The translations under genes and the position numbers were made by a program. The notes below the pieces were generated by a model. The model had not been told where the DNA came from. It made no database searches and saw only the letters and a program-made list of their open reading frames with translations. Positions 4,230 through 19,482 of a DNA stretch of 22,947 nt are shown in pieces; positions within the stretch are counted from its first letter, which is position 1, and every line of letters begins with the position of its first letter. The stretch is from an uncultured Nocardioides sp. (GTDB lineage: Bacteria; Actinomycetota; Actinomycetes; Propionibacteriales; Nocardioidaceae): positions 1 through 22,947 of the forward strand of contig NZ_CAMPGZ010000044.1 in the NCBI RefSeq assembly GCF_946885725.1. The letters are read 5' to 3'.

Positions 4230-5450
4230 ATGACCGACGTGGCACCGGACAGGCGCGAGCAGGTCGTCGTCGGGATCGGCGACGGGGCGGCGGGCTTCGC
4301 GGGGCACGACCGCGGCGGCGGGACACCCGGAGGCCTGGCCACGCAGGACATGGTGCTCAACATCGGTCCGCAGCACCCCGCCACCCACGGCGTCCTCCGG
4401 CTGAAGCTGACCCTCGACGGCGAGCGGATCGTCGAGTGCGAGCCGATCATCGGATACATGCACCGCGGCGCCGAGAAGCTCTTCGAGGTCCGCGACTACC
4501 GCCAGATCATCGTGCTGGCCAACCGGCACGACTGGCTCTCGGCCTTCTCCAACGAGCTCGGCGTCGTGCTCGCTCTCGAGCGGATGCTCGGCATGGAGGT
4601 GCCGGTCCGCGCCGTCTGGCTGCGCACGATGCTGGCCGAGCTCAACCGAGTGCTGAACCACCTGATGTTCCTGGGCTCCTACCCCATCGAGCTCGGTGCG
4701 ATCACGCCGATCTTCTACGCCTTCCGCGAGCGGGAGACCCTCCAGGCGGTGATGGAGGAGATCTCCGGCGGCCGCATGCACTTCATGTTCAACCGCGTCG
4801 GCGGGCTCAAGGAGGACATGCCTGCGGGTTGGGTCGACCGCGCCGAGGCCGCCGTCCGCGCCGTACGCAGCCGGATGCCGCAGATCGAGGACCTGGTCTT
4901 CGGCAACGAGATCTTCCAGGCCCGGACCAAGGGCGTCGGCGTCCTCCCCCGCGAGCTCGTCGACGCGTACGGCGTGAGTGGCCCGATCGCCCGCGCCAGC
5001 GGTGTCGACTTCGACCTGCGTCGCGACGAGCCGTATCTCGCCTACCAGGAGCTCGTCGACGACGGGGTGATGCAGGTGATCACCCAGGAGGAGGGCGACT
5101 GCTACGCGCGGTTCGGCATGCTGCTGGACCAGGTCCAGGTCTCCCTCGACATCGTCGAGGCCTGCGCCGAGCGGCTTCGCTCGCTGGACCGCGGTCCGAT
5201 CAACGTCCGGCTGCCGAAGATCCTCAAGGCGCCGGAGGGTGCGACGTACGCCTGGACCGAGAACCCGCTCGGCATCAACGGCTACTACCTCGTCTCGCGC
5301 GGCGAGAAGACCCCGTGGCGGATGAAGCTGCGCACGGCGTCGTTCAACAACATCGCGGTGCTGCCGGAGGTGCTGACCGGTTGCGTGGTGGCCGACATGG
5401 TGGCGGTGCTGGGCTCGATGTTCTTCGTGGTCGGCGACATCGACAAGTAG
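4230..5450 (+). CDS. nuoD: NADH-quinone oxidoreductase subunit D-like protein (NuoD2 type)
   Basis: 406 aa, full length for NuoD, the 49-kDa-type subunit of complex I that forms the quinone pocket with NuoB. After a Gly/Ala-rich leader of about 40 residues come [14 protein letters not shown] (residues 41-54, with the pocket His53), [33 protein letters not shown], and the terminal FFVVGDIDK that matches the conserved C-terminus of the family. The Tyr that contacts quinone in Thermus Nqo4 (Tyr87) aligns without gaps to Trp102. It lies 10 bases after the glycosyltransferase, in the same direction and with no other nuo gene in view. The sequence resembles, from memory, the second NuoD of streptomycetes rather than the operonic one. 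ATG 4230 has only GCGAGG directly against it, so the start is less certain. It may be a respiratory subunit paralogue or have a new role. Confidence 0.93.
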
Positions 5451-5579: not shown

Positions 5580-5585
5580 TATCGT
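5580..5585 (+). promoter_or_regulatory. Candidate -10 element for a leaderless sulfotransferase mRNA
   Basis: TATCGT fits the actinobacterial TANNNT -10 pattern and ends 7 bases before ATG 5593, which would put the transcription start at the start codon. No convincing -35 and no Shine-Dalgarno sequence is present. This favours ATG 5593 over the in-frame GTG 5584, which falls inside the hexamer. Confidence 0.4.
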
Positions 5586-5592
5586 GCAGCCC

Positions 5593-6660
5593 ATGTCCCC
5601 CGAGTCCGAGCGCACGCTGGTGATCGTCACGGGTTCGGGCCGCAGCGGCACGAGCACCGTCACCGGCAGCCTGAAGATGCTCGGCTGCTACGTCCCGCAG
5701 CCGGAGATCCCCGCCAACGAGGCCAACCCGCGCGGCTACTTCGAGCCGAAGTGGACCGTCGAGTTCCAGAAGCGGGTCCTCGCCGACGCCGGCGTCCGCA
5801 CCCTCGACGCCCGGCCCGAGGCCTACGACCTCATGCAGCCGACGTGCGCGAAGGCGGAGTTCCGCGACGAGCTGCGCGAGTGGTTCGCGACGCAGCTCAA
5901 GGCGCCGCAGATCGTGGTCAAGGACCCGCGCTCGTTCTGGCTGCGCAACCTCTGGGTCCCGGTCGCGAGCGACCTCGGGGTCGAGACCCGGTTCCTGACC
6001 ATGCTCCGCCACCCGGCCGAGGTCGTCGGGTCCCGCGACATGCACTACCTCAAGAACGCCGACGAGTCGCGTCGGCTGGCGCGCGAGACCGGAAACCTCG
6101 GCGGATGGATCAACGTCGCGCTGACCAACGAGTACGTCGGCCGCGAGAGCCCCCGCGCCTTCGTGCACTACACCGACATGATCAGCGACTGGCGCAAGGC
6201 CATGCTCGACGCCGGCGAGAAGCTCGGGCTGACGTACGACGCCGACCTCACCAGCGACGCGCACCACCCGATCGACGACTTCATCGACTCGAGCCTGCGC
6301 CGCTCCCAGCTCGACTACGACGACCTCGACGTGCCCGACCAGCTCGTCGAGATCGCCAAGACCGTCTGGGAGAACCTCGACGCGCTGTCGAAGGACCCCT
6401 ACGACGAGGCAGCGATGAAGAGCAACGACGAGATGCGCGAGGCCTACGGCCAGCTGCACACCTGGTCAGTGGCGCTGACCCAGGATCACACGAACTACTC
6501 GGTCGACGTCGCCCGCGCACAGACCCGCCGCAAGGTCACCCGCGAGCTGGGCGCCCAGGCGGCCCAGCCCGCGCAGCCGGCGGCGTCGCTGCCGCGCCGC
6601 GTCGTACGCAAGGTCCGGTCGCTGGCTCGCCAGGCTCGACCCTCCCGCACCGGGGCGTGA
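5593..6660 (+). CDS. Sulfotransferase family protein
   Basis: 355 aa from ATG 5593 (GTG 5584 is an alternative). The N-terminus carries a P-loop-like 5'-phosphosulfate-binding motif, GSGRSGTST (residues 14-22), and RHPAEVVGSR (139-148) supplies the Arg-x7-Ser spacing of the PAPS 3'-phosphate site. Both cofactor-binding signatures are therefore intact. Such enzymes move sulfate from PAPS to a hydroxyl or amine of a carbohydrate, lipid or protein. No signal peptide or TM segment is seen, so it acts in the cytoplasm before export. The last 35 residues are Ala/Gln/Arg rich. The gene sits between envelope glycosyltransferases and a TagF-like polymerase, and its stop overlaps or nearly touches the next start, which suggests that the substrate is the wall polymer or its lipid precursor (inference). 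Confidence 0.87.
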   Translation: MSPESERTLVIVTGSGRSGTSTVTGSLKMLGCYVPQPEIPANEANPRGYFEPKWTVEFQKRVLADAGVRTLDARPEAYDLMQPTCAKAEFRDELREWFATQLKAPQIVVKDPRSFWLRNLWVPVASDLGVETRFLTMLRHPAEVVGSRDMHYLKNADESRRLARETGNLGGWINVALTNEYVGRESPRAFVHYTDMISDWRKAMLDAGEKLGLTYDADLTSDAHHPIDDFIDSSLRRSQLDYDDLDVPDQLVEIAKTVWENLDALSKDPYDEAAMKSNDEMREAYGQLHTWSVALTQDHTNYSVDVARAQTRRKVTRELGAQAAQPAQPAASLPRRVVRKVRSLARQARPSRTGA

Positions 6661-9302
6661 GCGTGTCCGACCCCCAGGTCCCCAGCGTCGTCGGGGCTGT
6701 GCGGCGGCGCCTCGCGCTGCGCACCCGCGCCCGTGCGGCCCGTGAGTCGGTCACCCAGGCCCGCTACGCCCGGTGGCGCGAGAAGCCCGTCGTCCCCGGC
6801 ACGGTGCTCTACGAGTCGTTCTCCGGAAACGGCATGCTCGACAACCCGGAGGCGATCTTCCGGCACCTGCTGACGCAGCCGGACATGGAGCACCTGGAGC
6901 ACATCTGGGTGCTCGACGACCTCGAGAAGCACCCCGAGGTGCTGCAGGAGTTCGAGAGCCACCCGCGGGTGCGGTTCGTGCAGATCCGCTCCGACGCGTA
7001 CTTCAAGGCGCTCGCCACGTCGCAGTACCTCATCAACAACGCGACGTTCCCGCAGGAGCTCGCGAAGCGGCCCGGGCAGACCTACCTCAACACCTGGCAC
7101 GGCATTCCGCTGAAGTACATGGGCTTCGACATGCCCAACGGCGGTCCGAACTCCCGGAACATCACCCGCAACTTCCTGCAGACCGACTTCATGATCGGCG
7201 CCTGCCAGTACATGACCGACACCATGTACCGCCGCGCCTACCGCATGCAGGGCATCTACCGCGGCGCCGTGATCGAGGAGGGCCACCCGCGCACCGACCG
7301 CCAGGTCGAGGCGCTCAAGGACCCCGGCCCGACGATTCAGCTGCTCGAGGAGCGCGGCTGCCGCATCGACGGCCGCAAGGTTGTCCTGTTCGCCCCCACC
7401 TGGCGCGGCGACTCCTTCCAGGACCCGCGGGTCAACGCCGGCCAGCTGCTCGCGACGGTGAAGGACCTGCAAAAGGCCCTCGACCCCAGCGAGTACGTCG
7501 TTCTGCTCAAGGTCCACCAGGTCGTGTACGACGCCGTGAAGCAGCGTGTCGGCGACGGGGTCGACTTCCTGGTCCCCAACAGCGTGCCGACCAACCAGAC
7601 GCTCGCGGTGGCCGACCTGCTCGTCACCGACTACTCGTCGATCTTCTTCGACTACCTGGCCACCGGGCGGCCGGTCGTGCACTACGTGCCGGACCTCGAC
7701 GACTACCGCGGCAGCCGGGGGCTCTACCTCGAGGAGTCCGACCTCCCCGGCCCGGTGTGCGCCACGGTGCCCGACCTCGTCGACGCCGTACGGTCCGCGC
7801 TCGCGGAGGGCACGTCCGAGCGGTCGCTCGAGCTCGCCGAGGTCTACAACCCCAAGGACGACGGCGCGGTGTGCGAACGCGTCGTGGACATCGTCTTCCG
7901 TGGCAAGGAGGACCCGTCCTACACGGTGCGACGCGACTTCGGCACCGACAAGGAGACGCTGCTGATCTACCTCGGCAGCCTCAAGACGCAGGGCATCACC
8001 ACGTCGGCGCTCAACCTGCTGCGCAACCTCGACTACGACCGCTACGACGTCACGGCGTTCTACACGTTCTCCAAGGGCCCCGACCGGCTGAAGAACGCCG
8101 CGCTCGTCGACGACCGTGCGCGCGTCATCCCGCGGGTCGTGCAGTTCAACGGCAACCCCGCGCGGGTGCGTCGCGAGACGCGCAAGCTGATGCAGGAGGG
8201 CCTGCCCGAGCAGCTCAGCGCCGACCACGTGAAGTTCTGGACCGACGAGTGGCAGCGCGTCTTCGGGCACGCCCGGTTCGACCACCTGATCGACTTCAGC
8301 GGCTACGGCTGCTACTCGCCGTTCCTGTTCTCGGTGACCGAGGCCAAGCACAAGTCGATCTGGCTGCACAACGACATGTACGCCGACATGCAGCGCGAGA
8401 CGATCGGCGAGAAGCACCTCGAGGACCGGCTGCAGGCCGTGTTCACGACGTACAAGTACTTCGACCACCTCGTCTCGGTCTCCCCCGAGCTCGACGCGGT
8501 CAACCGCAAGCACCTCGCGGAGTACGCCCCGCCCGAGCGGTTCACCTATGCCGTCAACACGATCGACGGCGACCGGATCCTGCGGCTCTCCGGCCTGACC
8601 GCCGAGCAGGTGGCGGCCAAGGCGCGCGGCGAGGGCGTCAAGAGCGTCGGCCCGGCCGAGAAGGTCGAGATCGACGCCGGCAACCTGACCCAGGCGATGA
8701 ACGTGCTCCTCGAGCACTTCGACGTGCGCGACGTGCTGCGCGAGGCGCGCGGCCGGCTGCGGCTGGCCAACCAGCCCGCGCCGACGAAGGACGCCGTGAC
8801 GTTCGTGACCGTGGGCCGGCTGTCCCCGGCGAAGAACCACGCGCGGATGATCAAGGCGTTCGCCAAGGTGCACGAGACCAACCCGCACATCCGGCTGATC
8901 ATCATGGGCTACGGCCCGCTCGAGGCCGAGCTGCAGGCGCTGATCAACAGCCTCGGCATGGACTCCGCGGTGACGCTGGCGGGCCTGGTCGACAACCCGT
9001 TCGCGATCCTGGCCGAGAGCGACTGCTTCGTGCTGTCGAGCGACTGGGAGGGCCAGCCGATGGTCATCCTCGAGGCGCGCGTGCTCGGCCTGCCGATCGT
9101 GACCACGGCCTTCTCCTCCGCCACCGACTCCGTACCCCCGGAGGCCGGCATCGTCGTGCCCCAGTCGGTCAAGGGCCTGGCCGAGGGCATGCGACGCTTC
9201 CTCGACGGCGACGTGAAGTGCATCCCGCTCGACGCCGCGGAGTACAACGCGATGGCGATGCGTCAGTTCGATGCCGCCATCCACCACCGCCCGGGCGCCT
9301 GA
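6657..9302 (+). CDS. TagF-like CDP-polyol polyolphosphotransferase fused to GT4 glycosyltransferase
   Basis: 881 aa from GTG 6657, overlapping the sulfotransferase stop as GTGA; GTG 6663 is an equally good start with GGGG 7 bases upstream. The N-terminal half (about 45-420) is a CDP-glycerol/ribitol polyolphosphotransferase domain: NTWHGIPLKYMG with His148, LFAPTWRGD, LLKVHQV with His287, and VADLLVTDYSSIFFDYL. The spacing of 139 residues between the two His agrees with the two essential His of Bacillus subtilis TagF (474 and 612). The C-terminal half (about 430-870) is a GT-B/GT4 domain with VTVGRLSPAKNHARMIKAF, SDCFVLSSDWEGQPMVILEA and a conserved Glu. The protein may both polymerise polyol-phosphate units and glycosylate them. 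The family acts at the cytoplasmic membrane face; no TM segments are seen. CDP-glycerol versus CDP-ribitol cannot be decided. Confidence 0.9.
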   Translation: MSVSDPQVPSVVGAVRRRLALRTRARAARESVTQARYARWREKPVVPGTVLYESFSGNGMLDNPEAIFRHLLTQPDMEHLEHIWVLDDLEKHPEVLQEFESHPRVRFVQIRSDAYFKALATSQYLINNATFPQELAKRPGQTYLNTWHGIPLKYMGFDMPNGGPNSRNITRNFLQTDFMIGACQYMTDTMYRRAYRMQGIYRGAVIEEGHPRTDRQVEALKDPGPTIQLLEERGCRIDGRKVVLFAPTWRGDSFQDPRVNAGQLLATVKDLQKALDPSEYVVLLKVHQVVYDAVKQRVGDGVDFLVPNSVPTNQTLAVADLLVTDYSSIFFDYLATGRPVVHYVPDLDDYRGSRGLYLEESDLPGPVCATVPDLVDAVRSALAEGTSERSLELAEVYNPKDDGAVCERVVDIVFRGKEDPSYTVRRDFGTDKETLLIYLGSLKTQGITTSALNLLRNLDYDRYDVTAFYTFSKGPDRLKNAALVDDRARVIPRVVQFNGNPARVRRETRKLMQEGLPEQLSADHVKFWTDEWQRVFGHARFDHLIDFSGYGCYSPFLFSVTEAKHKSIWLHNDMYADMQRETIGEKHLEDRLQAVFTTYKYFDHLVSVSPELDAVNRKHLAEYAPPERFTYAVNTIDGDRILRLSGLTAEQVAAKARGEGVKSVGPAEKVEIDAGNLTQAMNVLLEHFDVRDVLREARGRLRLANQPAPTKDAVTFVTVGRLSPAKNHARMIKAFAKVHETNPHIRLIIMGYGPLEAELQALINSLGMDSAVTLAGLVDNPFAILAESDCFVLSSDWEGQPMVILEARVLGLPIVTTAFSSATDSVPPEAGIVVPQSVKGLAEGMRRFLDGDVKCIPLDAAEYNAMAMRQFDAAIHHRPGA

Positions 9303-9363
9303 CAACGATTCGTCTGCGGTCCGCCCGCGTGGATCACCCCGTAAGTCGCAGACGAATCGTTGT
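9302..9363. terminator. Perfect 17-bp inverted repeat between convergent genes, likely bidirectional terminator
   Basis: The left arm ACAACGATTCGTCTGCG (9302-9318) is the exact reverse complement of 9347-9363, with a 28-base loop. The left arm starts on the last base of the + strand stop, and the right arm ends directly against the - strand stop (9364-9366), so each transcript enters the hairpin as soon as translation ends. There is no U-tract, as is common for actinobacterial terminators. Confidence 0.75.
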
Positions 9364-12300
9364 TCAGCCCCACTCCGACGCGACGACGCGCTCGGCGGCG
9401 TGGCCGTCGTCGAGCGGGAGCAGGCGCGCGCGGAGGGCGTCGCGCCCGGGGTAGTGGTTACCGAGGCCGTCGGTGAGCCACGGGACGAGCCCCTCGGTGG
9501 TCGTCGCGACCGGGCCCGGCGGGTCGGCGAACAGGTCGACGAACCAGCCCACGTCCTCGAACTCCTCCCGGTCCGGCACGAACAGCGCCAGCGGGGTGTC
9601 GGAGGCGAGCACGTCCACGACGAGTGACGAGAAGTCGCTGACCACCGCGTCGGCGAGCAGCACCAGGTCCGACAGCTCGGGGTAGAGCGTGACGTCCAGC
9701 ATCCCTGACTCCGGCCCGAGCACCGCGCGGTTGGCGGTGTTGGGGTGACCGCGGTGCAGCACGGTGAGGCCGGGTACGGCCTCGCGCAGGGCGGCGACGT
9801 CGAGGTCGACGACCTTGTCTCGGCGGGTGTGCGCGCGCACGGCGTGCCGGGTGGTCGGGGCGTAGAGCAGCACCGGGCCGTCGCCGATCCCGAGCCGGCG
9901 GCGGGCCTCCGCGGCGCGGGCGGCGCGGTCGTCGGCTCGGTAGGCGTCGACCGCGGGATGGCCGACCTCGCGCACCTCGCCCTCGTAGTGCGTCGCCTCC
10001 CGGAACCATGCGGTCGCCTCGGCGCTGCCGGTGCAGAGCACGTCCCAGCGCGCGGCGTCACCAGCCAGCTGGCGCTGCCCGGGGCCGTAGCCGGTCTCCC
10101 CCGGCGGTACGGCGTACCCGAAGCGCAGCAGCGGCGTGCCCGTCCACAGCTGCACGATCCGCTGGCCCGGGGGCTTGCGGTGCCAGCGCGGCAGCGTCCC
10201 GTTGGTGAGCACGTGCGAGGCGGTGGCGAGGTGGCCGTACCAGGCGGCCGACCCGCGGGACACCGGCGTGACACCGGGCGGGGGCGGGAGCGACTCGTCG
10301 CGGAGGGCCCAGACGACCTGGAGGTCCGGGCGGTGCTCGCGCAGCGCCGTCACGACCGCGCCGGGGGCGTGGAACGGCCCACGCCCGACGAACGCGTCGA
10401 CGAGAACCTTCGGCCGCCGTTCACCGGCCAGGCCCTCGGCGTACACGCCCGTCTGCAGCTGCTGCTGCCCGTGCCGGGTCTGCTCCTCGAGCTCTCCATC
10501 CCGTGTGCGCTCGACGGCCAGCGTTCCGCTGTCGAGCAGCCGCACCGCCCACTCCGGGACGACGTCGCGGGGAGCGTCCGGCGGGTCGAGGCTCGGGACG
10601 CCGATGACACCGGGCACCTGGTAGGTGTCGCGCGGGAGCGGGAGGGGGCGGCCGTCGAGCACCGACGGCAGGACGGTCGGCACGACGGCCTCCCAGCGGT
10701 CACCGTCGACCGTGACGGGTGCGGACGCGCGGGCGCGGGGCCCGACCAGCTCCAGGGTCTTGAGGGCCGGCCCCGACACGGGACCCGTGATCCGGACGGC
10801 GCCCTGCTCGAAGGTCACCTCGGTCGCGCGCATCCGGTCCGGCCGGCCGCCCACGCGGACGTAGCCCTCGAAGGAGTCGTCCTCGGCGTCGTCCGCCCCG
10901 TCGAGCGCGGCCAGGTCGAGCAGCGGCTGCGGACGGCCCTTTCCCGTGTCGACGAGGAGTCTCCGGCCGAGGTCCGCGTCGTTCGCCGGGAGCACAGCGC
11001 GAAAGGTGCCGTCGCCGACCGGCTCCACGGTCGCCACCTGCTCCCGCTGCACGAGCAGGGCGGTCGGTGTCACACCCGCCGCGGTGCGCAGGTGGAGCGT
11101 GTCGCCGTCCCGTCCGCTCAGCACGACCCAGTCGCGGCGCACGGTCACGACGAGGCCGAGCCGGTCCGACCAGGTCACCTCGACGAGCACGTCGCCGAGC
11201 AGGTGGCGCAGCGGGTGCAGCGCCGAGCCGTGCTCGACGCGCTCCCGGAACACCGCGCTGCGCGTCCTCCCGAGCGTCGTACAGCTGACCCGGGTGTGCC
11301 AGACCGTGCGTGCGCCGTCCGAGGCGGCCACCAGCGCCTCCAGCGGCACGCGAGCGGCGAACCCGTCGTCGCGGTGGTCCTCGTAGGTGCGGTTGGCGAA
11401 GTCGTTGGCGTCCTCGACGTGCTCGCCGCGGGTCGCGATGCTGACCGGGTCGCCGCCCGCCCTCCGCTGGAACGTCAGCGTCACCTCGTGCGGCAGGCTG
11501 CTGTCGACGTACCGGGTGAACGCGACGCCGCGCACCACCAGCGCGTCGCCGTCGACGGCCAGGGTGTCCATGCGCGCCTCGACGAGGAGGTCGCGCTCGG
11601 AGACGGCGAGCAGCTCGGGTGGTACGTCGCCGCGCAGGCCGAGCCGGTCGGGGTCGGCCTCCAGGCGGTCGCCGCGCGTGCGCACCGGCACGTTGCCGCC
11701 GAGCAGCGGCGACTCCAGCACGCTGATGAGCGTCTCGCGGCCCTCGTGCACGAGCGCCCAGGCCGCGATCCGGTGCCGCAGGTCGACGTTGTCCCACGCG
11801 TCGGCCGGAGCGTTGTCGAGGACGTGCGACACCGTCTCCGCGAGCGTGGCGTAGTAGTCGTCGTCGGCGTCGACCGCGGCGCGGATGTAGGCGAACAGGT
11901 CGAACTCGAAGACCTTGCCGTACCAGCCACGCAGCACCACCGGGCTCTGCCGCTCGACCACGAGGCGGCGCACCTCGTCGACCGCGAGGAGCCGGTCGTG
12001 CAGGTCGTCCTTACGGGCCTTCTGCTGGGTGATCGAGGAGCCGTCCCTGCGGCTCCGCCAGCGGTAGACGATGTCGGGGAGGATGTCGAAGGTGTTTGCC
12101 AGGAGGTATGCGCGGGTGATCGGCACCTGGTCCTCGTAGCGGACGCCGACCGGGAAGCGCAGCCCGATCCGCTCCAGGAAGTCGGCGCGGAAGACCTTGG
12201 TGCACGCGAAGACGTTGGCCATCGCCTCCGGCGCCTCCTCGAGGTGCACCCCACGACGGAGCACCTCGTGGAGCCGGCGCGACCAGGGCTTCTGGAGGTA

Positions 12301-12822
12301 CGTCGACTCGCTCTGCTGGCGCTCCAGCGCGCCCACCGAGAAGTCGGAGCCGGAGCGCACCAGCTGGCGGACGTGGGCGGCGATCGCGTTGTCGGGGATG
12401 GTGTCGTCGGAGTCGACGAACGTGACCAGGTCGCCCCGGGCCTCGTCGATGCCGCGGTTGCGAGCGGCACCCAGGCCGGCGTTCTCCTGGTGCACGATCC
12501 GGATGCGGTCGTCCTTGGCGGCGTACTGCTCGACGATCTCCATCGACCCGTCGGGCGAGCCGTCGTCGACGACGACCACCTCGAGGTTGCGGTAGGTCTG
12601 CGCCAGGATCGAGTCCAGGCACTCGGCGATGTAGCGCTCCACGGCGTACACCGGGACCACCACGCTGACCAGCGGCTCGTCCGGCAGCGCCCGAGGCTGC
12701 GCGTCCTCGTTGGCGGCACGCTCGGTCGCCTGCGGTTCCGCCGTCGGCGCAGGCTCGCGCCGCAGCCTCCTGGCCAGTCGCCCCGCCAGTCCCGTGCGCT
12801 CACCCGCCACGGTGGCGACCAT
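9364..12822 (-). CDS. GT2 glycosyltransferase fused to TagF-like domain (TagF His replaced)
   Basis: 1152 aa from ATG 12822; GTG at codon 5 is an alternative and neither has a clear SD. Residues about 52-270 form a complete GT2 domain: VSVVVPVY (52-59), VVVVDDGS (82-89), ENAGLGAARNRG, FVDSDD (DxD, 135-140) and RYEDQ (general base, 228-232). Residues about 430-780 are a strand-rich region with no catalytic motif I recognise. Residues about 810-1150 are TagF-like: LLYAPTTRH, LHRGHPN with His1026, LADAVVSDFSSLVVDVL. Where the family has TWHGTP, this protein reads LWTGTP, so the first catalytic His is Thr894 (ACG at 10143-10141). The polymerase half is therefore probably inactive or altered, while the glycosyltransferase half should work. 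It lies 21 bases after its paralogue and is probably co-transcribed with it. No TM segments. Confidence 0.88.
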   Translation of the reverse strand: MVATVAGERTGLAGRLARRLRREPAPTAEPQATERAANEDAQPRALPDEPLVSVVVPVYAVERYIAECLDSILAQTYRNLEVVVVDDGSPDGSMEIVEQYAAKDDRIRIVHQENAGLGAARNRGIDEARGDLVTFVDSDDTIPDNAIAAHVRQLVRSGSDFSVGALERQQSESTYLQKPWSRRLHEVLRRGVHLEEAPEAMANVFACTKVFRADFLERIGLRFPVGVRYEDQVPITRAYLLANTFDILPDIVYRWRSRRDGSSITQQKARKDDLHDRLLAVDEVRRLVVERQSPVVLRGWYGKVFEFDLFAYIRAAVDADDDYYATLAETVSHVLDNAPADAWDNVDLRHRIAAWALVHEGRETLISVLESPLLGGNVPVRTRGDRLEADPDRLGLRGDVPPELLAVSERDLLVEARMDTLAVDGDALVVRGVAFTRYVDSSLPHEVTLTFQRRAGGDPVSIATRGEHVEDANDFANRTYEDHRDDGFAARVPLEALVAASDGARTVWHTRVSCTTLGRTRSAVFRERVEHGSALHPLRHLLGDVLVEVTWSDRLGLVVTVRRDWVVLSGRDGDTLHLRTAAGVTPTALLVQREQVATVEPVGDGTFRAVLPANDADLGRRLLVDTGKGRPQPLLDLAALDGADDAEDDSFEGYVRVGGRPDRMRATEVTFEQGAVRITGPVSGPALKTLELVGPRARASAPVTVDGDRWEAVVPTVLPSVLDGRPLPLPRDTYQVPGVIGVPSLDPPDAPRDVVPEWAVRLLDSGTLAVERTRDGELEEQTRHGQQQLQTGVYAEGLAGERRPKVLVDAFVGRGPFHAPGAVVTALREHRPDLQVVWALRDESLPPPPGVTPVSRGSAAWYGHLATASHVLTNGTLPRWHRKPPGQRIVQLWTGTPLLRFGYAVPPGETGYGPGQRQLAGDAARWDVLCTGSAEATAWFREATHYEGEVREVGHPAVDAYRADDRAARAAEARRRLGIGDGPVLLYAPTTRHAVRAHTRRDKVVDLDVAALREAVPGLTVLHRGHPNTANRAVLGPESGMLDVTLYPELSDLVLLADAVVSDFSSLVVDVLASDTPLALFVPDREEFEDVGWFVDLFADPPGPVATTTEGLVPWLTDGLGNHYPGRDALRARLLPLDDGHAAERVVASEWG

Positions 12823-12843
12823 ATCGGGCGACCGGAGCGGCTC

Positions 12844-15800
12844 TCAGACCTGGGACAGCAGCCAGTCCACGGTGCGCGCCGAGGCCCGGCCGTCGTCCCA
12901 GGGGCAGAACCGCTCCCGGAAGGCCTTGCGACGGTCGGCGTACGCGTCGTCGGCGACCAGCGCCGCCGCCACTTCGTCGGTGGTCGTGACCATCGGACCG
13001 GGCGCGGCCTCCTCGAGGTCGAAGTAGAAGCCGCGCTCGACGTCGCGGTACTGGTCGAGGTCGGGCACGAGAAGCACCTGCGGCTTGTCCGTCAGCGCGA
13101 AGTCGAACATCACCGAGGAGTAGTCGGAGACCAGCGCGTCGGCGGCGAGGTACAGGTCCGCGATGTCGGGGTAGCGGGTCACGTCGTGGATCCGGGACTC
13201 GCCCCGGAAGGCATCCGCCTGGTGAGTCGCGTTGTAGTGGCCGCGCACCAGCACGACCGCGTCGGGCACGGCCCGCACCAGCGCCTCGGCGTCGAGGTAC
13301 AGCGGCTTGGGGTCACGGACGCCGACGTACTCCCGCCAGGTCGGGGCGTAGAGCACCACCCGGTCCGCGTCGGACAGCCCCAGACGGCTCCGCACGTCGG
13401 CCCGCAGCCGCGGCCCGCGCTCGGCGTCCAGCAGGACGTCGTTGCGGGGGTAGCCGACCTCGAGGAACCTGCCGTCGAACCGGAACGCGCTGCGGAAGTG
13501 CTCGGAGCAGAACGGGCTCGGCGAGATCATCGCGTCCCAGCCGGCCGCCTGCAGCGCGATCCGCCGCCGGTGCCGCCAGGTCTGGAAGTCGCCGGGTCCG
13601 CGGTCCTCGCCGATCCTCTTCAGCGGGGTGCCGTGCCAGGTCTGCAGGTGGATCTGGCCGGTCTTCTTCGTGAACCAGTACGGCGCCCCGGCGTTGCCGA
13701 CGTAGGCGCGGGCCCGGCCCAGCGCGTCGTACCAGCGCTCCGACCGGCGGGGCAGGGCGCGCGTGCCCTCCGGGACGACCACACTGGGGTCGTCGACGAC
13801 CCAGGCCAGGTCGAGGTCGACGCCGCGGTCGAGCAGCTCCCGACAGATTGCGCCGGGGTTGTCACCGACGCTGCGGCCGCGGAAGGTCTCCAGCACCACA
13901 GTCGCGTCGTACGTCGGCCGCGGAGGCGCGGCGTAGACGTGGGTCTGCAGGCGCTGCTGGTCGTAGGCGCTGCGCTCGTCCTTCCGCAGCGGCGCGGAGA
14001 CGGCGAGGACCGGTCCGTCCGGGCCGTCCGCGGGCACCACCCGGAGTCGCTCGGCGACCAGCTCCTGGCCATGCCTGTGCTCCCAGGCGGCCGCGACCGG
14101 GGTGCCGGCACGGTCGCGGAGCTCCACGGCGTAGCGGCCGGCGGGCAGTAGCACGTCCTGGCCGAACAGGTCGGTCACCAGCGGCACCCTGGCGACCCAC
14201 GTGCGGCCCTTCTGCTCGACGTCGGCGGCCGGCGTGCCGCCCTTGCCGCCCTCGAGCAGCACCCGGGCGGGGGCGGGACCGGTGCCGTCCAGCACCAGCA
14301 CGGGGGTGGGCCCGTCGTCGAGGCCGGCTGCGGCGAGCCGGGGGGGTGGGCCGGCGTCCGGAGCGGCGAGGACGACGTCGTGGGAGCCGGCGCGGCGGCC
14401 GAGGTGGACGTCGACGCGCCAGCGGCCGCTCGGGCTCGGCGGCTCAGTGCCCGGGTCGAGCCGGGCGGTGAAGCCGCCGCCGGACCGGTCCTCCCAGGCG
14501 CGCTGGGCCCAGAGGTTGACCTCGGGGTCGTGCCGGGGCTCGACGATCATCGGCACCGAGCGGCCGCCCGGTGCGGTCAGGACCACCGAGGGCAGCGTGC
14601 TGCGCTCGCCGTACTCGACGAACGCGGCGCCGTTGATGGTCAGTCCGCCGAGGTCGTCGCGGCGCAACGTGCCCACCACCGTGCGCAGCACGCGGTCGAC
14701 CTGCTCGATCCGGCGGACCGCGTCGGGGACGGGGATGCCGAGGCCGGCGGGGAGGACGACGACCTGCACACCCTCGGCCGAGCGCTCGGTGGGCAGGCCG
14801 TGGGGGTTGTCGGCGATGAGGTCCTGCACCAGCGCGAGGTCGTGCAGCGAGCCCTGCGACGCGCGCGCGAGCATCCGGGCCGCCACCGGCACCTCGGCGA
14901 GTGCGCCCGGCCCCGTGTCGCCGACGAGGTCGCGCACGAACGGCGCGAGCACCTCCAGCGACCGGTTGCCGCCGCCGACGGCGTCGACCAGCAGCGGCGG
15001 AACGACGTGGGTGAGGGTGAGGACCAGCCAGCGTCGGTAGACCGCGCTGTCGGTCTCGGCCACGAGCGCGGCGACCTGGCGGAGCGCACCGACCTCGACG
15101 GCGACCACGCTCGGACGGAACCGCGGCTGCTCGTCCACGGGCAGGGAGGCGGTGCGGTCGTGGCGGAGGTACGCCGTGCCGGGCACCACGTCGAAGGTCG
15201 AGGTGAGCAGAAGGTGCGCGGCCGTGACGGCGCGCACGGACCAGTCGGCGAGCGAGATGCCGCCGGCCCGCCAGGAGGCGGTGCGGACCACGGCGCCGGT
15301 GAGGGCGGCGCCGACGAGCACGTCGGGGCACGAACCGACCTGCTGGCGGGTCAGGTGGCCGGCGTACAGCGTGTCCGCCCAGCTCGGTGGGGTCGTGCGG
15401 CCGCCACGCACCTGTGCGACCGGACCGACCGCGACGTCGGAGCCGCTGGCCTCCAGGCTGGCAACGAGCCGCGGCAGCGATCCCGGGGCGAGCTGGTCCG
15501 CGCTGTCGGCGAACGCGAGGTAGTCGCCCTCCGCAGCGGCGACCGCGGCGTCGAGGCCTCGCGGGGCGAGCGGGAGCACGCGCACCCGTCGGTCGGCGAG
15601 GTGCCGGCTGGCCGCGGCCGCTTGGCCCGCGGCGGGGTCGGCGGGAGCGATCAGCACCTCGACCGCGCGGTGACCGGCGTCCAGCACCGAGGCGACGCAG
15701 TCGTCGACGTGGGCCTTCGACGCCGTGCCACCCCGCACCACCACGACGACGCTGACCCGCGGCCCCGAGGCCGGGCCGCGGACCCGCTCACCCAGCTGCT

Positions 15801-15867
15801 CGGTCGACGCACGCACGCGGCGGCGCAACCGCCCGGCCCACCTGCGCACGTCGCTCACGGGTCCCAT
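12844..15867 (-). CDS. TagF-like polyolphosphotransferase with degenerate N-terminal GT2 domain
   Basis: 1007 aa from ATG 15867; GTG 15858 (codon 4) has a better SD-like GGATGGG upstream and may be the true start. Residues about 37-260 align in layout with GT2 domains, but VDDGS is replaced by LIAPADP (71-78), the DxD region reads ADSAD (120-124), and the ED general base is absent (SLADWS), so sugar transfer is unlikely. Residues about 380-640 are strand rich. Residues about 665-1000 are an intact TagF domain: LETFRGRSVGDNPGAI, QTWHGTPLKRIG with His745, VLYAPTWRE, LVRGHYN with His877, and ADALVSDYSSVMFDFAL. The family polymerises polyol phosphate from CDP-polyol onto a lipid-linked primer at the inner membrane face. 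It is the first gene of a two-gene leftward unit with the preceding paralogue. Confidence 0.88.
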   Translation of the reverse strand: MGPVSDVRRWAGRLRRRVRASTEQLGERVRGPASGPRVSVVVVVRGGTASKAHVDDCVASVLDAGHRAVEVLIAPADPAAGQAAAASRHLADRRVRVLPLAPRGLDAAVAAAEGDYLAFADSADQLAPGSLPRLVASLEASGSDVAVGPVAQVRGGRTTPPSWADTLYAGHLTRQQVGSCPDVLVGAALTGAVVRTASWRAGGISLADWSVRAVTAAHLLLTSTFDVVPGTAYLRHDRTASLPVDEQPRFRPSVVAVEVGALRQVAALVAETDSAVYRRWLVLTLTHVVPPLLVDAVGGGNRSLEVLAPFVRDLVGDTGPGALAEVPVAARMLARASQGSLHDLALVQDLIADNPHGLPTERSAEGVQVVVLPAGLGIPVPDAVRRIEQVDRVLRTVVGTLRRDDLGGLTINGAAFVEYGERSTLPSVVLTAPGGRSVPMIVEPRHDPEVNLWAQRAWEDRSGGGFTARLDPGTEPPSPSGRWRVDVHLGRRAGSHDVVLAAPDAGPPPRLAAAGLDDGPTPVLVLDGTGPAPARVLLEGGKGGTPAADVEQKGRTWVARVPLVTDLFGQDVLLPAGRYAVELRDRAGTPVAAAWEHRHGQELVAERLRVVPADGPDGPVLAVSAPLRKDERSAYDQQRLQTHVYAAPPRPTYDATVVLETFRGRSVGDNPGAICRELLDRGVDLDLAWVVDDPSVVVPEGTRALPRRSERWYDALGRARAYVGNAGAPYWFTKKTGQIHLQTWHGTPLKRIGEDRGPGDFQTWRHRRRIALQAAGWDAMISPSPFCSEHFRSAFRFDGRFLEVGYPRNDVLLDAERGPRLRADVRSRLGLSDADRVVLYAPTWREYVGVRDPKPLYLDAEALVRAVPDAVVLVRGHYNATHQADAFRGESRIHDVTRYPDIADLYLAADALVSDYSSVMFDFALTDKPQVLLVPDLDQYRDVERGFYFDLEEAAPGPMVTTTDEVAAALVADDAYADRRKAFRERFCPWDDGRASARTVDWLLSQV

Positions 15868-15907: not shown

Positions 15908-16891
15908 TCAGCCGTCGATGAGGCCCGCCTGGGTGAGGTACTCCTTGGCGACGTCGGCGGGGAGCTGCCGCTCGAGGTCCACCTGGCCGATCATCCGGGT
16001 GAGATCCAGGGTGGTGAGCTGCTCGGACATCTTGTTGAGCACGTCGGCCACGTCCGCGTTGTCGGCGAGGAAGTCGCTGTTGACCATCGGGACGAGGTTC
16101 TCGGCGTTCTGCAGCTCCTTGTCGTCCTCGAGGATGACGATGCCGAGCTGCTCCAGGGTCGCGTCCGTCGTACCGACCTGGCCGAGCGTGACCTCGCCCT
16201 TGCGCAGGGCGTCCTTGGTGGCCTCGGTGCCGAAGCCGAGCGGCTCGACCTTGGAGATGTTCAGGCCGTAGGTCTTCTCCAGGCCGAGCTTGCAGTCGCC
16301 GCGCTCGGGGCAGTCCTCGGCCGCTGCGAGCGTGACCGGCTTGCCGAGGTCCGCCAGGTCGCTGAGCGTGGTCACGGAGTTCTCGTCGGAGAACTCCTTG
16401 GTCACCGCGAACGCGTTGGCGTCCTGGGCCTCGGCCGGCTCCAGCGGCTCGATGCCGGTCGGCTCGGCGAGCTTGCGCAGCTCCTCGAGCGTCGCGTCGG
16501 TGTCGTGGGAGGCGACCGGTTCGGCGTCGGGGCCGTTGGCCTGGGCGTTGAGGTACTCGGTCATCGAGGAGAGGTAGTCGGCCGAGACGTCGACGTTGCC
16601 CTTCTGCATCTGGGGTGCGTAGACGTCGCGGCTCTCGACCAGCTTGAGCGTGACGTCGTAGCCGGCGTCCTCGAGAAGCGCCTTGTAGATCTCGCTCATG
16701 ATCTGCATCTCGGTGTAGTTCTGGCCGCCGATGACGACCTCGCCACCACCTCCGCCTCCCTCGGAGCCGGAGTCGGGCTGGTCGAGAGCGTCCTCGCCCG
16801 CGCAGGCGCCGACGAGCGCCAGCGGCACGAGCGCCGCGGCCGCCGCGATCCGACGCGTGAGTGCTGAATGGGTGAACAGGCTGCTACGCAT
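15908..16891 (-). CDS. Osmoprotectant (glycine betaine/choline) ABC transporter substrate-binding lipoprotein
   Basis: 327 aa. The N-terminus is a lipoprotein signal: basic MRSSLFTHSALTRR, a hydrophobic core, then LVGAC with Cys30 as the lipidated residue, followed by a Gly-rich linker (GSEGGGGGG) that spaces the domain from the membrane. The mature part fits the OpuAC/OpuBC fold: VVIGGQNYTEMQIMSEIYKALLE, VDVSADYLSSMTEYL, LEKTYGLNISKVEPLGFGT, GQVGTTDATLEQLGIVILEDD, and a C-terminal helix pair ending LTQAGLIDG. It captures a quaternary-amine compatible solute outside the membrane and delivers it to the two permeases encoded just upstream. The exact ligand cannot be read: the aromatic box residues are not safely assignable. 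A purine-rich AAGGCGGGG precedes the start, and a separate promoter seems to serve it. Confidence 0.93.
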   Translation of the reverse strand: MRSSLFTHSALTRRIAAAAALVPLALVGACAGEDALDQPDSGSEGGGGGGEVVIGGQNYTEMQIMSEIYKALLEDAGYDVTLKLVESRDVYAPQMQKGNVDVSADYLSSMTEYLNAQANGPDAEPVASHDTDATLEELRKLAEPTGIEPLEPAEAQDANAFAVTKEFSDENSVTTLSDLADLGKPVTLAAAEDCPERGDCKLGLEKTYGLNISKVEPLGFGTEATKDALRKGEVTLGQVGTTDATLEQLGIVILEDDKELQNAENLVPMVNSDFLADNADVADVLNKMSEQLTTLDLTRMIGQVDLERQLPADVAKEYLTQAGLIDG

Positions 16892-16975
16892 GTGCCGCCC
16901 CGCCTTCTGTGTCCCGCGACAGTTCGTCGTCGCGCGTGTCCGGCGGGCGCCAGTGGTCGAGCACCCGCGACACGC

Positions 16976-17003
16976 AGACTACGCCCGGGCACCGACGGTG
17001 CAA
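16976..17003 (-). promoter_or_regulatory. Candidate promoter of the substrate-binding protein gene, with embedded palindrome
   Basis: On the - strand TTGCAC (17003-16998), a 16-base spacer and TAGTCT (16981-16976) form a sigma-70-like promoter about 85 bases before ATG 16891. A perfect 13-bp palindrome, GCACCG-A-CGGTGC (16989-17001), overlaps the -35 and spacer and could be an operator, or a weak terminator for the permease transcript. Confidence 0.45.
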
Positions 17004-17020
17004 GTGATCCGATCGGGTTG

Positions 17021-17761
17021 TTACGAACCCTCAATCGGGAGGGGACGAACCCGGCGAACGGGCCTCGACCTCGCGCGGCGGCGCGCCCGGGCGACCGGGT
17101 CGAGGAGGTACTGGAGAGCGACCAGGACCACCTCGAGCAGCAGCGCGCAGACCGCGATGACCAGGGCGCCGCCCACGATCATCGCGATGTCCTGCCGGAC
17201 GAAGCCGAGAGTGACGATCCGGCCGAGGCCGGGGCCGGCGACGAGCGCGGCGATCGTGGCGGTGGCCCAGACCTGGACGACGGCGAGCCGCAGCCCCGCC
17301 ATGATCAGCGGCAGCGCGAGCGGTATCTCCACGCGGCGCAGCAGCTGGCGGCCGGCCATCCCCATCCCCCGCGCGGCCTCGACGGTGTCGCGGTCCACCT
17401 CCCGCATCCCGACGTACGCGTTGGTGACGATCGGCGGCAGCGCGAAGAGCACGAGCGCGACCAGCGTGGCGAGGCCGGCGCGGCCGTAGGGACCGAGGTA
17501 CGACGAGCCGATCGGGCCGAGCGCGAGCAGCAGCAGGACCGCGAACGTCGGAACCGCGCGGCCGACGTTCGTGATGTTCACGGCGAGCAGGCCGCCGCGG
17601 CCGATGTGGCCGAGCCAGATCGCCAGCGGCAGGCCGACGAGCGCGGCGACGATCGTCGCGGTGAGCGTGAGCAGCCCGTGCTCGAGCAGGCGGTTGAGGA
17701 TCCCGTCCTCGCCCTGCCAGTTGGCGGGGTCGGCGTACCAGGCCCAGACCGAGCCGATCAC
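17021..17761 (-). CDS. Osmoprotectant ABC transporter permease (second)
   Basis: 246 aa from GTG 17761, which overlaps the stop of the first permease as GTGA and has GAGGG 7 bases upstream. The frame is open further upstream, but that part is only a shadow of the first permease. About five or six hydrophobic helices are seen, beginning with HGLLTLTATIVAALVGLPLAIWL. The EAA cytoplasmic loop reads EAARGMGMAGRQLLRRVEIPLALPL (split by family spacing), the contact site for the ATPase. A very basic Arg-rich tail follows the last helix. Together with the first permease it forms the membrane channel of an OpuC/ProW-type importer. The 129 bases between this gene and the binding protein hold the candidate promoter. 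Confidence 0.9.
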   Translation of the reverse strand: MIGSVWAWYADPANWQGEDGILNRLLEHGLLTLTATIVAALVGLPLAIWLGHIGRGGLLAVNITNVGRAVPTFAVLLLLALGPIGSSYLGPYGRAGLATLVALVLFALPPIVTNAYVGMREVDRDTVEAARGMGMAGRQLLRRVEIPLALPLIMAGLRLAVVQVWATATIAALVAGPGLGRIVTLGFVRQDIAMIVGGALVIAVCALLLEVVLVALQYLLDPVARARRRARSRPVRRVRPLPIEGS

Positions 17762-18450
17762 GACGCCGCCCTCGCCCGGGTCCACGGTGTGAGCAGCCGT
17801 TGCAGGCCGACCAGCAGCACGTCGAAGAAGACGGCCAGCACCACGCAGAGCGCTCCGGATGCCAGGACCTGGGCCTTGAACTGGCTGTCGACCGCCTGCA
17901 GGAGCAGGTTGCCGAGGCCGCCGTACCCGACGATGGACCCGACCGTCGCCAGGGCGACCGTCGACACGAACGCGACCCGCAGACCGGCCATGAGGGTCGG
18001 CAGCGCCAGCGGCAGCTCGACGCCGAGCAGGAGGCGGACGCGGCCGTAGCCCATGCCGAGCGCGGACTCGCGCACGTCGGCCGGGACGGCCTTGAGCCCC
18101 TCGACGATGTTGCGGACCAGGATCGTCAGCGAGTACAGCGCGAGCCCGATGATCACGGTCGCGGGCGTCAGCCCGGTGAACGGCAGCAGCAGGGCGAAGA
18201 GGGCGAGCGAGGGGACGGTGTAGATCGCGGTCGTCGCGCCGACGATGATTCCTTCGAGCCTTCGGTAGCGTCTGGCCAGCAGGGCCAGGGGAAACGCCAG
18301 TGCGAGACCGAGCAGGACGGACACCACCGTGATCCAGACGTGCTGCACCAGGGCATCGGTCAGGATGTCCGACCGGGTGCGGAAGTACTCCGCACACACC
18401 CACTCGTTGTCGACCAGGCAGCTCGGTGCCGCCGTCGAGGGGATCGCCAC
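17758..18450 (-). CDS. Osmoprotectant ABC transporter permease (first)
   Basis: 230 aa from GTG 18450. The leader SCLVDNEWVCAEYFRTR precedes the first helix and resembles, from memory, the N-terminus of related actinobacterial permeases, which supports this far-upstream start; GTG at codon 18 is the fallback. Five to six TM helices follow, with the binding-protein-dependent EAA loop ESALGMGYGRVRLLLGVELP. It imports compatible solutes as a heterodimer with the next gene. Its start codon touches the divergent ATPase start with no base between them. No SD is visible, but TACGGT lies 7 bases upstream, which suggests leaderless translation. Confidence 0.9.
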   Translation of the reverse strand: MAIPSTAAPSCLVDNEWVCAEYFRTRSDILTDALVQHVWITVVSVLLGLALAFPLALLARRYRRLEGIIVGATTAIYTVPSLALFALLLPFTGLTPATVIIGLALYSLTILVRNIVEGLKAVPADVRESALGMGYGRVRLLLGVELPLALPTLMAGLRVAFVSTVALATVGSIVGYGGLGNLLLQAVDSQFKAQVLASGALCVVLAVFFDVLLVGLQRLLTPWTRARAAS

Positions 18451-19482
18451 GTGAGTGACCGTAGCCCAGCCGGCCCCGGCCGTGACGCCGCCGGCTCCGA
18501 CGACTTCGCGATCCGCCTCGTCGGCGTGGGCAAGACCTACGACGACGGCACGGTCGCGGTGCAGGCACTCGACCTCGACGTGCCCCGCGGCCGGACGGTC
18601 TCGCTCGTCGGGCCGTCAGGGTGCGGCAAGTCGACGACGCTGAAGATGGTCAACCGGCTGATCGAGCCCACGACCGGCCGGATCTTCCTCGAGGGCGAGG
18701 AGATCACCCGGGCCGACCCCGTCGCCCTGCGGCGGCGGATCGGCTACGTGATCCAGCAGGTCGGTCTGTTCCCGCACCAGTCCGTCCGCACCAACGTCGC
18801 GACGGTCCCGACCCTGCTGGGCTGGGAGCGGAAGAAGGCGCAGGCGCGGGCCGACGAGCTGCTGGAGCTGGTCGGCCTGGACCCGGCACAGTACGCCGGC
18901 CGCTACCCCCACGAGCTCTCCGGCGGTCAGCGGCAGCGTGTGGGCGTCGCGCGGGCGCTCGCCGCCGACCCGCCGGTGCTGCTGATGGACGAGCCGTTCG
19001 GCGCCGTGGACCCGGTCGTGCGGGCCCGGTTGCAGGACGAGTTCGCCCGGATCGCGCGCGAGCTCGACAAGACCGTCCTGTTCGTCACCCACGACATCGA
19101 CGAGGCGATCCGGATGGGTGACCGGGTGGCGGTGTTCGCGACCGGTGGGCGGCTGGCGCAGTACGCCGAACCGGCGACGCTGCTGGGGCGGCCGGCCGAC
19201 GACTTCGTGGCCGAGTTCGTCGGCGCCGGCCGCGGGTTGCGGAGGCTGTCGGTGACGCCGATCGAGGAGCGGCACCTGGTGCGCCACGACGGTGAGCCGC
19301 CGTCGGCCTCGGTGCCCCTCGGCGGCACGCTCGAGGACGCACTGGCCACGATGATGCGTCAGGACGACGCCCGCGTGGCCGTCGTGCGCGACGGCACCAT
19401 GCTCGGCGTGCTCACGCCCGGCGCGGTGCACCGCGCGCTGCGGGCGTCGGTGGCGGAGGACGAAGAGGCAGCCTCTAGGTAA
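18451..19482 (+). CDS. Osmoprotectant ABC transporter ATP-binding protein with C-terminal CBS-like domain
   Basis: 343 aa. GTG 18451 is the first start in frame and has GAGGGGA 7 bases upstream, lying inside the divergent permease gene. Walker A is GPSGCGKST (54-62), the signature LSGGQRQR starts at residue 156, Walker B is LLMDEP (Asp180, Glu181), and the switch His is His214 in FVTHDID. After the Q-loop (VIQQVGLFPH) the fit is to the OpuCA/ProV subfamily. Residues about 255-335 resemble one CBS motif (ALATMMRQDDARVAVVRDG, then LGVLTPGAVHRAL); in OpuA-type importers CBS domains sense ionic strength, so gating by salt is plausible. It energises the two leftward permeases. Its end overlaps the convergent acetyltransferase by 8 bases. 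Confidence 0.94.
   Translation: MSDRSPAGPGRDAAGSDDFAIRLVGVGKTYDDGTVAVQALDLDVPRGRTVSLVGPSGCGKSTTLKMVNRLIEPTTGRIFLEGEEITRADPVALRRRIGYVIQQVGLFPHQSVRTNVATVPTLLGWERKKAQARADELLELVGLDPAQYAGRYPHELSGGQRQRVGVARALAADPPVLLMDEPFGAVDPVVRARLQDEFARIARELDKTVLFVTHDIDEAIRMGDRVAVFATGGRLAQYAEPATLLGRPADDFVAEFVGAGRGLRRLSVTPIEERHLVRHDGEPPSASVPLGGTLEDALATMMRQDDARVAVVRDGTMLGVLTPGAVHRALRASVAEDEEAASR
18458..18463 (-). promoter_or_regulatory. Candidate -10 for leaderless permease transcript
   Basis: On the - strand TACGGT (TANNNT type) ends 7 bases before GTG 18450. It lies inside codons 3-5 of the divergent ATPase gene. No clear -35 is seen. Confidence 0.35.

Follow-up and report, generated by a model that had tools for sequence, protein, structure and literature searches.

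Two neighbouring genes of an uncultured Nocardioides sp., here called A and B, encode proteins of the same GT2-middle-TagF layout, and each has kept the catalytic motifs of the half that the other has lost. On balance we favour a reading in which the two products, drawn from a family of bifunctional GT2-TagF polymerases, would now be complementary single-action transferases acting on one teichoic-acid-like surface polymer, a state reached through stepwise losses that left the dead domains as folded modules. The genes lie within a 22,947-nucleotide stretch (hereafter the window), on one strand, with B upstream of A and a gap of 21 bases between them (12823-12843; Table 1). Their position, shared layout and complementary damage, all proposed in a first-pass annotation made from the letters of the window, were borne out by profile searches and by nine A and 18 B orthologue clusters.

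Table 1. Features of the window discussed in the text, with positions counted from its first base
Feature	Position	Strand	Remarks
Gene A, GT2-middle-TagF protein, 1152 aa	9364..12822	-	complete GT2 motifs; Thr in place of the TagF catalytic-base His
A residues 48-320, GT2 (GT-A) domain	11863..12681	-	PF00535 132 bits; DDGS, DSDD, YED intact
A residues 321-790, middle region	10453..11862	-	
A residues 803-1148, TagF domain	9379..10416	-	base lost; second His and donor-phosphate motif kept
A residue 894, site of the missing TagF base	10141..10143	-	
Gene B, GT2 relic-middle-TagF protein, 1007 aa	12844..15867	-	TagF motifs intact
B residues 36-300, GT2 relic	14968..15762	-	DD and ED lost, DxD incomplete; fold retained in prediction
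B residues 651-1003, TagF domain	12859..13917	-	TWHGTPLK, GYPRND, RGH, SDYSS intact
Gene C, convergent to A, TagF then GT4 domain	6666..9302	+	PF04464 264 bits, PF00534 95 bits; start codon approximate
Sulfotransferase-like gene, upstream of C	5584..6660	+	no Pfam match at 0.01 in the window
Perfect 17-nt inverted repeat where C and A converge	9302..9363	.	candidate bidirectional terminator

Both Pfam domains are found in both proteins above the curated cut-offs (23.3 bits for PF00535 and 22.1 bits for PF04464), with A scoring 132 and 166 bits and B scoring 37 and 318 bits, respectively, and in each chain the GT-A domain precedes the TagF domain. Neither A nor B holds both active sites complete; together they make up one full set. 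The GT2 domain of A has DD, DxD and ED, and its TagF domain has threonine (LWTGTP) at the site of His444 of Staphylococcus epidermidis TagF, reading TGTP where active enzymes read HGTP; the second histidine (His584 site) is still present, as are R in APTWR and, in DYSS, the D and first S. In B it is the TagF domain that keeps WHG (TWHGTP), the second histidine (RGH) and DYSS (SDYSS), and the GT2 region that reads PAD- in place of DD and DSAD without the last D of DxD, with ED absent. The damage to TagF in A is narrow, touching the base and a small number of further motif residues, whereas the damage to GT2 in B is broad. According to excerpts of PMC11666461, His444 is the likely base of TagF and His584 contacts the donor pyrophosphate, and excerpts of PMC5974469 describe how mutating their equivalents in Cps1B, or the DxD pair, brought activity to control level. 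Loss of this histidine is no proof of inactivity, because Cps7A, an active priming PF04464 transferase, has tyrosine at the His444 site (PMC11666461, in part); we nonetheless strongly infer from the motifs that the TagF domain of A is inactive. Loss of the DYSS serine, considered as an early marker of damage in the A lineage, was dropped, the last position being A, G or S even where WHG is intact.

These motif states are conserved. In the nine clusters of A orthologues (P0001-P0009, P0001 being that of the window), the base site holds T or S and the full GT2 set is present in every case, as is the histidine at the His584 site. Across 18 near-complete clusters of B orthologues (P0121 being that of the window), a set that omits the fragments or frame-broken sequences P0132, P0136, P0141 and P0145-P0147 and the more distant P0142-P0144 and P0148, WHG and the second histidine are kept throughout, DD is gone and ED incomplete throughout, DxD survives in four, and none has a complete GT2 catalytic set. 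Conservation of this kind reflects neither chance nor sequencing error, and judged by these clusters the damaged states of both A and B are old. In four of the omitted B-lineage sequences (P0136, P0145, P0146 and P0147), either the sequence or its match ends early in the TagF domain, near the NAGAP motif, through either frame errors or something real.

The dead domains are under purifying selection. Between the window and the related genome G001, both of which have frames open throughout, dN/dS in these domains is 0.17-0.24, and mean identity is 72% for the TagF domain of A (nine clusters) and 64% for the GT2 relic of B (11 clusters), with few gaps. Their predicted folds are retained, although the AlphaFold2 model of B has a pTM of 0.52 and its domain arrangement is accordingly unsure. 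This selection argues against simple decay, in which redundant domains would drift and the pattern would carry no functional meaning, a reading we hold to be very improbable even though changes of the TagF histidine are frequent and some relatives have broken genes: the histidine-less genes of G332 (L068 7539-11079) and G098 (L090 3592-7582) have their GT2 and TagF parts in different frames, and the B-type gene of G105 (L043 10316-13564) carries an in-frame TGA, each the result of either decay or sequencing error.

We give somewhat more credence, though still little, to the idea that the TagF domain of A has been re-purposed, so that without the usual base it would still bind CDP-polyol or polymer, or would catalyze a different or single transfer. 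Consistent with this are a dN/dS of 0.24 for this domain, the active Cps7A with its tyrosine, and the fact that all 19 clusters of the A clade and the neighbouring clade, which we term WRG, share the second histidine, R in APTWR, and the D and first S in DYSS. In the WRG clade (10 clusters), however, the base site holds R or P, and none of the residues found there in the two clades (T, S, R or P) is an obvious general base; several other lineages have lost further motifs, and P0089, whose GT2 domain places it with the WRG clade, does not match PF04464. Together with P0037, which is sister to the A clade and has no recognizable TagF active site, P0089 perhaps represents a next stage of TagF loss.

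The first-pass annotation attributed the pair to duplication and subfunctionalization. Judged by sequence, A and B are paralogues, with 38% identity over 374 columns in their C-terminal parts and 23% over 438 columns in their N-terminal parts. They look like older paralogues rather than fresh duplicates. A TagF tree of 67 rows places A in an A-lineage of 27 rows (SH-aLRT 100) and B in a B-lineage of 20 rows (SH-aLRT 99). Recent tandem duplication is disfavoured by the TagF and GT2 trees, short of strict exclusion, as an AU test does not quite reject A clade and B clade as one clade (p 0.074). The part of the proposal that holds up is subfunctionalization, with which a conserved and apparently recurrent reciprocal loss is in keeping. 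Histidine-bearing A-lineage sequences fall outside the histidine-less group in the TagF tree, and 16 further A-lineage clusters retain the base. On a GT2 tree of 75 rows, 25 of them lacking the TagF histidine, the histidine state requires six changes (bootstrap range 6-7), which is also the minimum forced by well-supported branches; this tree includes 30 of P0001-P0040, omits Humibacillus, genes without a TagF match above 150 bits and P rows beyond P0040, and contains the G110 gene at 3612120 as a long branch. Since regaining a whole active site is unlikely, we infer that the six changes are losses, and the tree suggests that reciprocal loss arose several times among relatives.

The GT2 half has likewise been lost to different degrees. 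The other branch of the B-lineage has suffered less GT2 damage than B: G332 and G079 lack ED only, and G085 and G078 have lost more than these two. The order of losses looks less tidy in G332, where the histidine is already gone from an A-like gene split over two frames and the B-lineage partner lacks only its ED site. By profile comparison, the N-termini of 12 TFHGYP-type partners (97.8%) and four B-type partners (99.7%) show GT2 similarity, against control values of 0.5% for TagF regions and 0.4% for middle regions; no GT2 similarity was found by this comparison in the N-termini of the b3 group (G108, G109, G110, G111 and G112; 0.1%) or in the N-terminus of the B protein of G103 taken alone (0.1%). 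The notion that all GT2-less TagF partners are GT2 relics is thereby ruled out for the b3 group. In three genomes we also came upon TagF-family proteins, each near a TagF-active gene, that are apparently dead in both halves, since the WHG site reads TTTGGP or TGAGHP and the GT2 catalytic residues are missing (L107 8520-11042, L108 11552-14071 and L109 4321-5397); the last of these has no GT2 match whatsoever. Elsewhere, intact GT2-TagF genes have as neighbours GT2 genes of this family that show no TagF match (L071-L076), possibly marking another route to loss of the TagF half.

To place the pair among its relatives, 341 genomes of the family were searched with an alignment of B and again with P0022, an A-lineage protein, with at most two candidates scored per genome in each search; the regions read, around selected hits among the matches listed, are a chosen sample. 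In this sample at least one GT2-TagF gene was scored in 54 genomes or records, counting the window and a Humibacillus record. Ten of the 54 carry a GT2-intact gene that lacks the TagF histidine (the window, G001, G095, G098, G108, G110, G112, G188, G197 and G332), and all ten also carry a TagF-active gene in which GT2 is lost, absent (G108, G110 and G112) or without ED (G332); for eight of them, the regions read revealed no gene intact in both halves. A further 32 genomes have an intact gene and no histidine-less gene, and 21 of these have a TagF-active partner that is GT2-dead or GT2-less, one of the 21 being Humibacillus, where a C-type gene was wrongly paired with a GT2 fragment (20 of 31 without this record). 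GT2-dead TagF proteins are often found in the same genome region as enzymes with both halves intact. In four more genomes of the order, there is one intact gene and no such partner within 20 kb.

Counted by gene, with all P rows left out, 45 GT2-intact genes were read, of which 11 have lost the TagF histidine and 34 have kept it. The correlation of motif states across pairs that the first-pass annotation led one to expect has the right direction and falls short of significance: a TagF-active partner with broken or absent GT2 is present in the same genome for 11 of 11 histidine-less genes versus 25 of 34 intact ones (Fisher p 0.087), and an independent-pairs test corrected for kinship is nearly powerless. 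Partner status in these counts was scored per genome and not by adjacency, so that the partner lies on another contig in G333 and G279, and in G340, which has two intact genes, one of them lies about 2 Mb from its counted partner; G118 and G329 count as partnered though the TagF gene is cut or has no clear N-terminus.

A strict rule that A never occurs without B, or the reverse, is not upheld. On a 4.44-Mb contig of G103, a sulfotransferase-like gene, C and B are found with no A-like gene, and the three PF04464 matches on that contig are B, C and a partial one; here the earlier expectation that a damaged gene would always have its partner fails in part. On contigs of at least 20 kb, paired by equal length, a listed B cluster stands alongside in three of five A-clade clusters and a listed A-lineage cluster in four of ten B-lineage clusters (the B of the window not counted), figures that rest on one contig per 90% cluster and on 120 of 579 clusters and may hide partners.

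This bears on an alternative in which A and B are not halves of one cycle: B would be a priming or transition transferase resembling TagB or TarF, or a second phosphotransferase serving C, and A would be a separate decorating glycosyltransferase. TarS and RmlT decorate wall teichoic acid, and the GT half of A matches both, with residues of about 50-658 (GT2 and the first part of the middle) aligning to their full-length structures. To our knowledge, primases of the PF04464 family normally have no GT2 relic, which speaks against such a role for B. TagB and TarF are PF04464 transferases whose step precedes that of the polymerase (PMC11666461, in part), and besides the B and C of G103 that lack an A, C and B are convergent neighbours in both G002 and G103. 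Set against these observations, A and B are adjacent and on the same strand in the window and in G001, and all 11 histidine-less GT2 genes have a TagF-active partner in the genome, though so do most intact genes. Separate roles seem to us unlikely, if a good deal less so than re-purposing or decay.

The surroundings of the pair can be described briefly. The TagF-then-GT4 layout of C resembles that of Cps3D and HS1.09, capsule polymerases for which this domain order is known (PMC11924219, in part). A protein of G103 at the place corresponding to the sulfotransferase-like gene matches Sulfotransfer_3, below cut-off. The inverted repeat forms a predicted RNA hairpin of -38 kcal/mol (z -7.0) and is perhaps a bidirectional terminator of C and A; no second copy was found in the window with up to three mismatches allowed, and none was reported between the corresponding genes of G001. 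Between a glycosyltransferase gene and the sulfotransferase-like gene lies a gene for a NuoD-like protein (complex I 49-kDa subunit; 4230-5450), and an ORF of the same length, matched by length and position, sits at the equivalent point of the N. iriomotensis locus (L001 20815-22035). Directly upstream of B is an osmoprotectant (glycine betaine-type) ABC transporter (15908-19482), which looks like ordinary housekeeping beside the polymer cluster.

In the division of labour that we favour, A would add a sugar to a teichoic-acid-like polymer, either as a backbone unit, as in Cps1B products, or as a side group in the manner of TarS and RmlT, and B would add a polyol-phosphate (or sugar-phosphate) unit to the same polymer. 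GT2 catalysis would have been lost in the B lineage, and the A-lineage TagF site, redundant beside a TagF-active partner, would have lost its catalytic base. The dead domains would persist in folded form, probably because they bind polymer or donor, associate with the membrane or help to assemble the partners. It is plausible that the TagF domain of A is a donor- or polymer-binding pseudo-domain, given the donor-site residues kept in A and the existence, by their titles, of H444N TagF structures with CDP-glycerol. A complex of A and B is possible and not needed, since mixing suffices both for engineered single-domain mutants and for single-action transferases taken from different serotypes (PMC8262930, in part). 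A bolder version, which we advance tentatively and think rather doubtful, is that in Nocardioidaceae a single-chain GT2-TagF polymerase repeatedly gave way to an obligate co-polymerase of two chains whose pseudo-domains are reciprocal. The dead TagF of A would then still bind donor or polymer and pass the chain to B, and the pair would be the fully reciprocal, bacterial equivalent of EXT1-EXT2. In either form the locus offers a natural repeated experiment in how polymerases with two active sites divide into specialized partners. As the pairs in related genomes range from intact through half-split to fully split, it can be tested in what order the losses came and whether a complex is required. 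The A orthologue P0002 is named 'bifunctional glycosyltransferase/CDP-glycerol:glycerophosphate glycerophosphotransferase', and such names can mislead for one half.

Several described systems resemble the pair in part. Like the capsule polymerases of the Cps1B type, A and B have an N-terminal GT-A domain and a TagF-like domain. Excerpts of PMC5974469 report that engineered single-domain mutants of Cps1B and Cps7D regain wild-type activity by simple mixing, and for Cps1B, a copy with DxD knocked out mixed with a copy lacking the His restores polymer (PMC5974469 and PMC8262930, both in part). Natural enzymes of this type are active in both domains and their split is man-made, whereas the split between A and B is natural and fixed; A and B are moreover actinobacterial, with a TarS-like middle. 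The TagF fold is shared with S. epidermidis TagF (3l7i-3l7m), residues 5-108 of which, a GT2-like N-terminal stretch in the deposited sequence, align with A; unlike A, that enzyme is an active polymerase in a single protein, and the H444N change present in some of its structures falls at the site where A naturally has T or S. The GT-A and C-terminal domains of TarS and RmlT appear from predicted folds to be present in the pair, though TarS and RmlT have no fused TagF domain and the copy of this fold in B is without the catalytic set. No paper on natural reciprocal GT2-TagF pairs, or on teichoic acid genes of Nocardioides, was found among the openly licensed PMC papers listed, judged by title and start of abstract. 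The earlier statement that no described system is built this way was nonetheless too strong. In human EXT1-EXT2, a heterodimeric heparan sulfate polymerase built from two paralogous bi-domain transferases, EXT2 carries a folded, inactive pseudo-GlcA-transferase domain (PMC9675754, in part), and A and B are similarly paralogous bi-domain transferases, each with a domain that its motifs mark as probably inactive. EXT1-EXT2 is a physical heterodimer, where A and B are known here from sequence; it is eukaryotic, belongs to the GT47 and GT64 families, and shows one-sided loss, EXT1 keeping both activities (PMC9675754, in part), so that it resembles the intact-plus-GT2-dead pairs of the relatives and not A and B. 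EXT1-EXT2 is the nearest described system known, matching the one-sided pairs best. Both the components and the idea of dividing such an enzyme were known before, and, set against the literature searched, the new element is a reciprocal split that is natural, fixed and apparently repeated.
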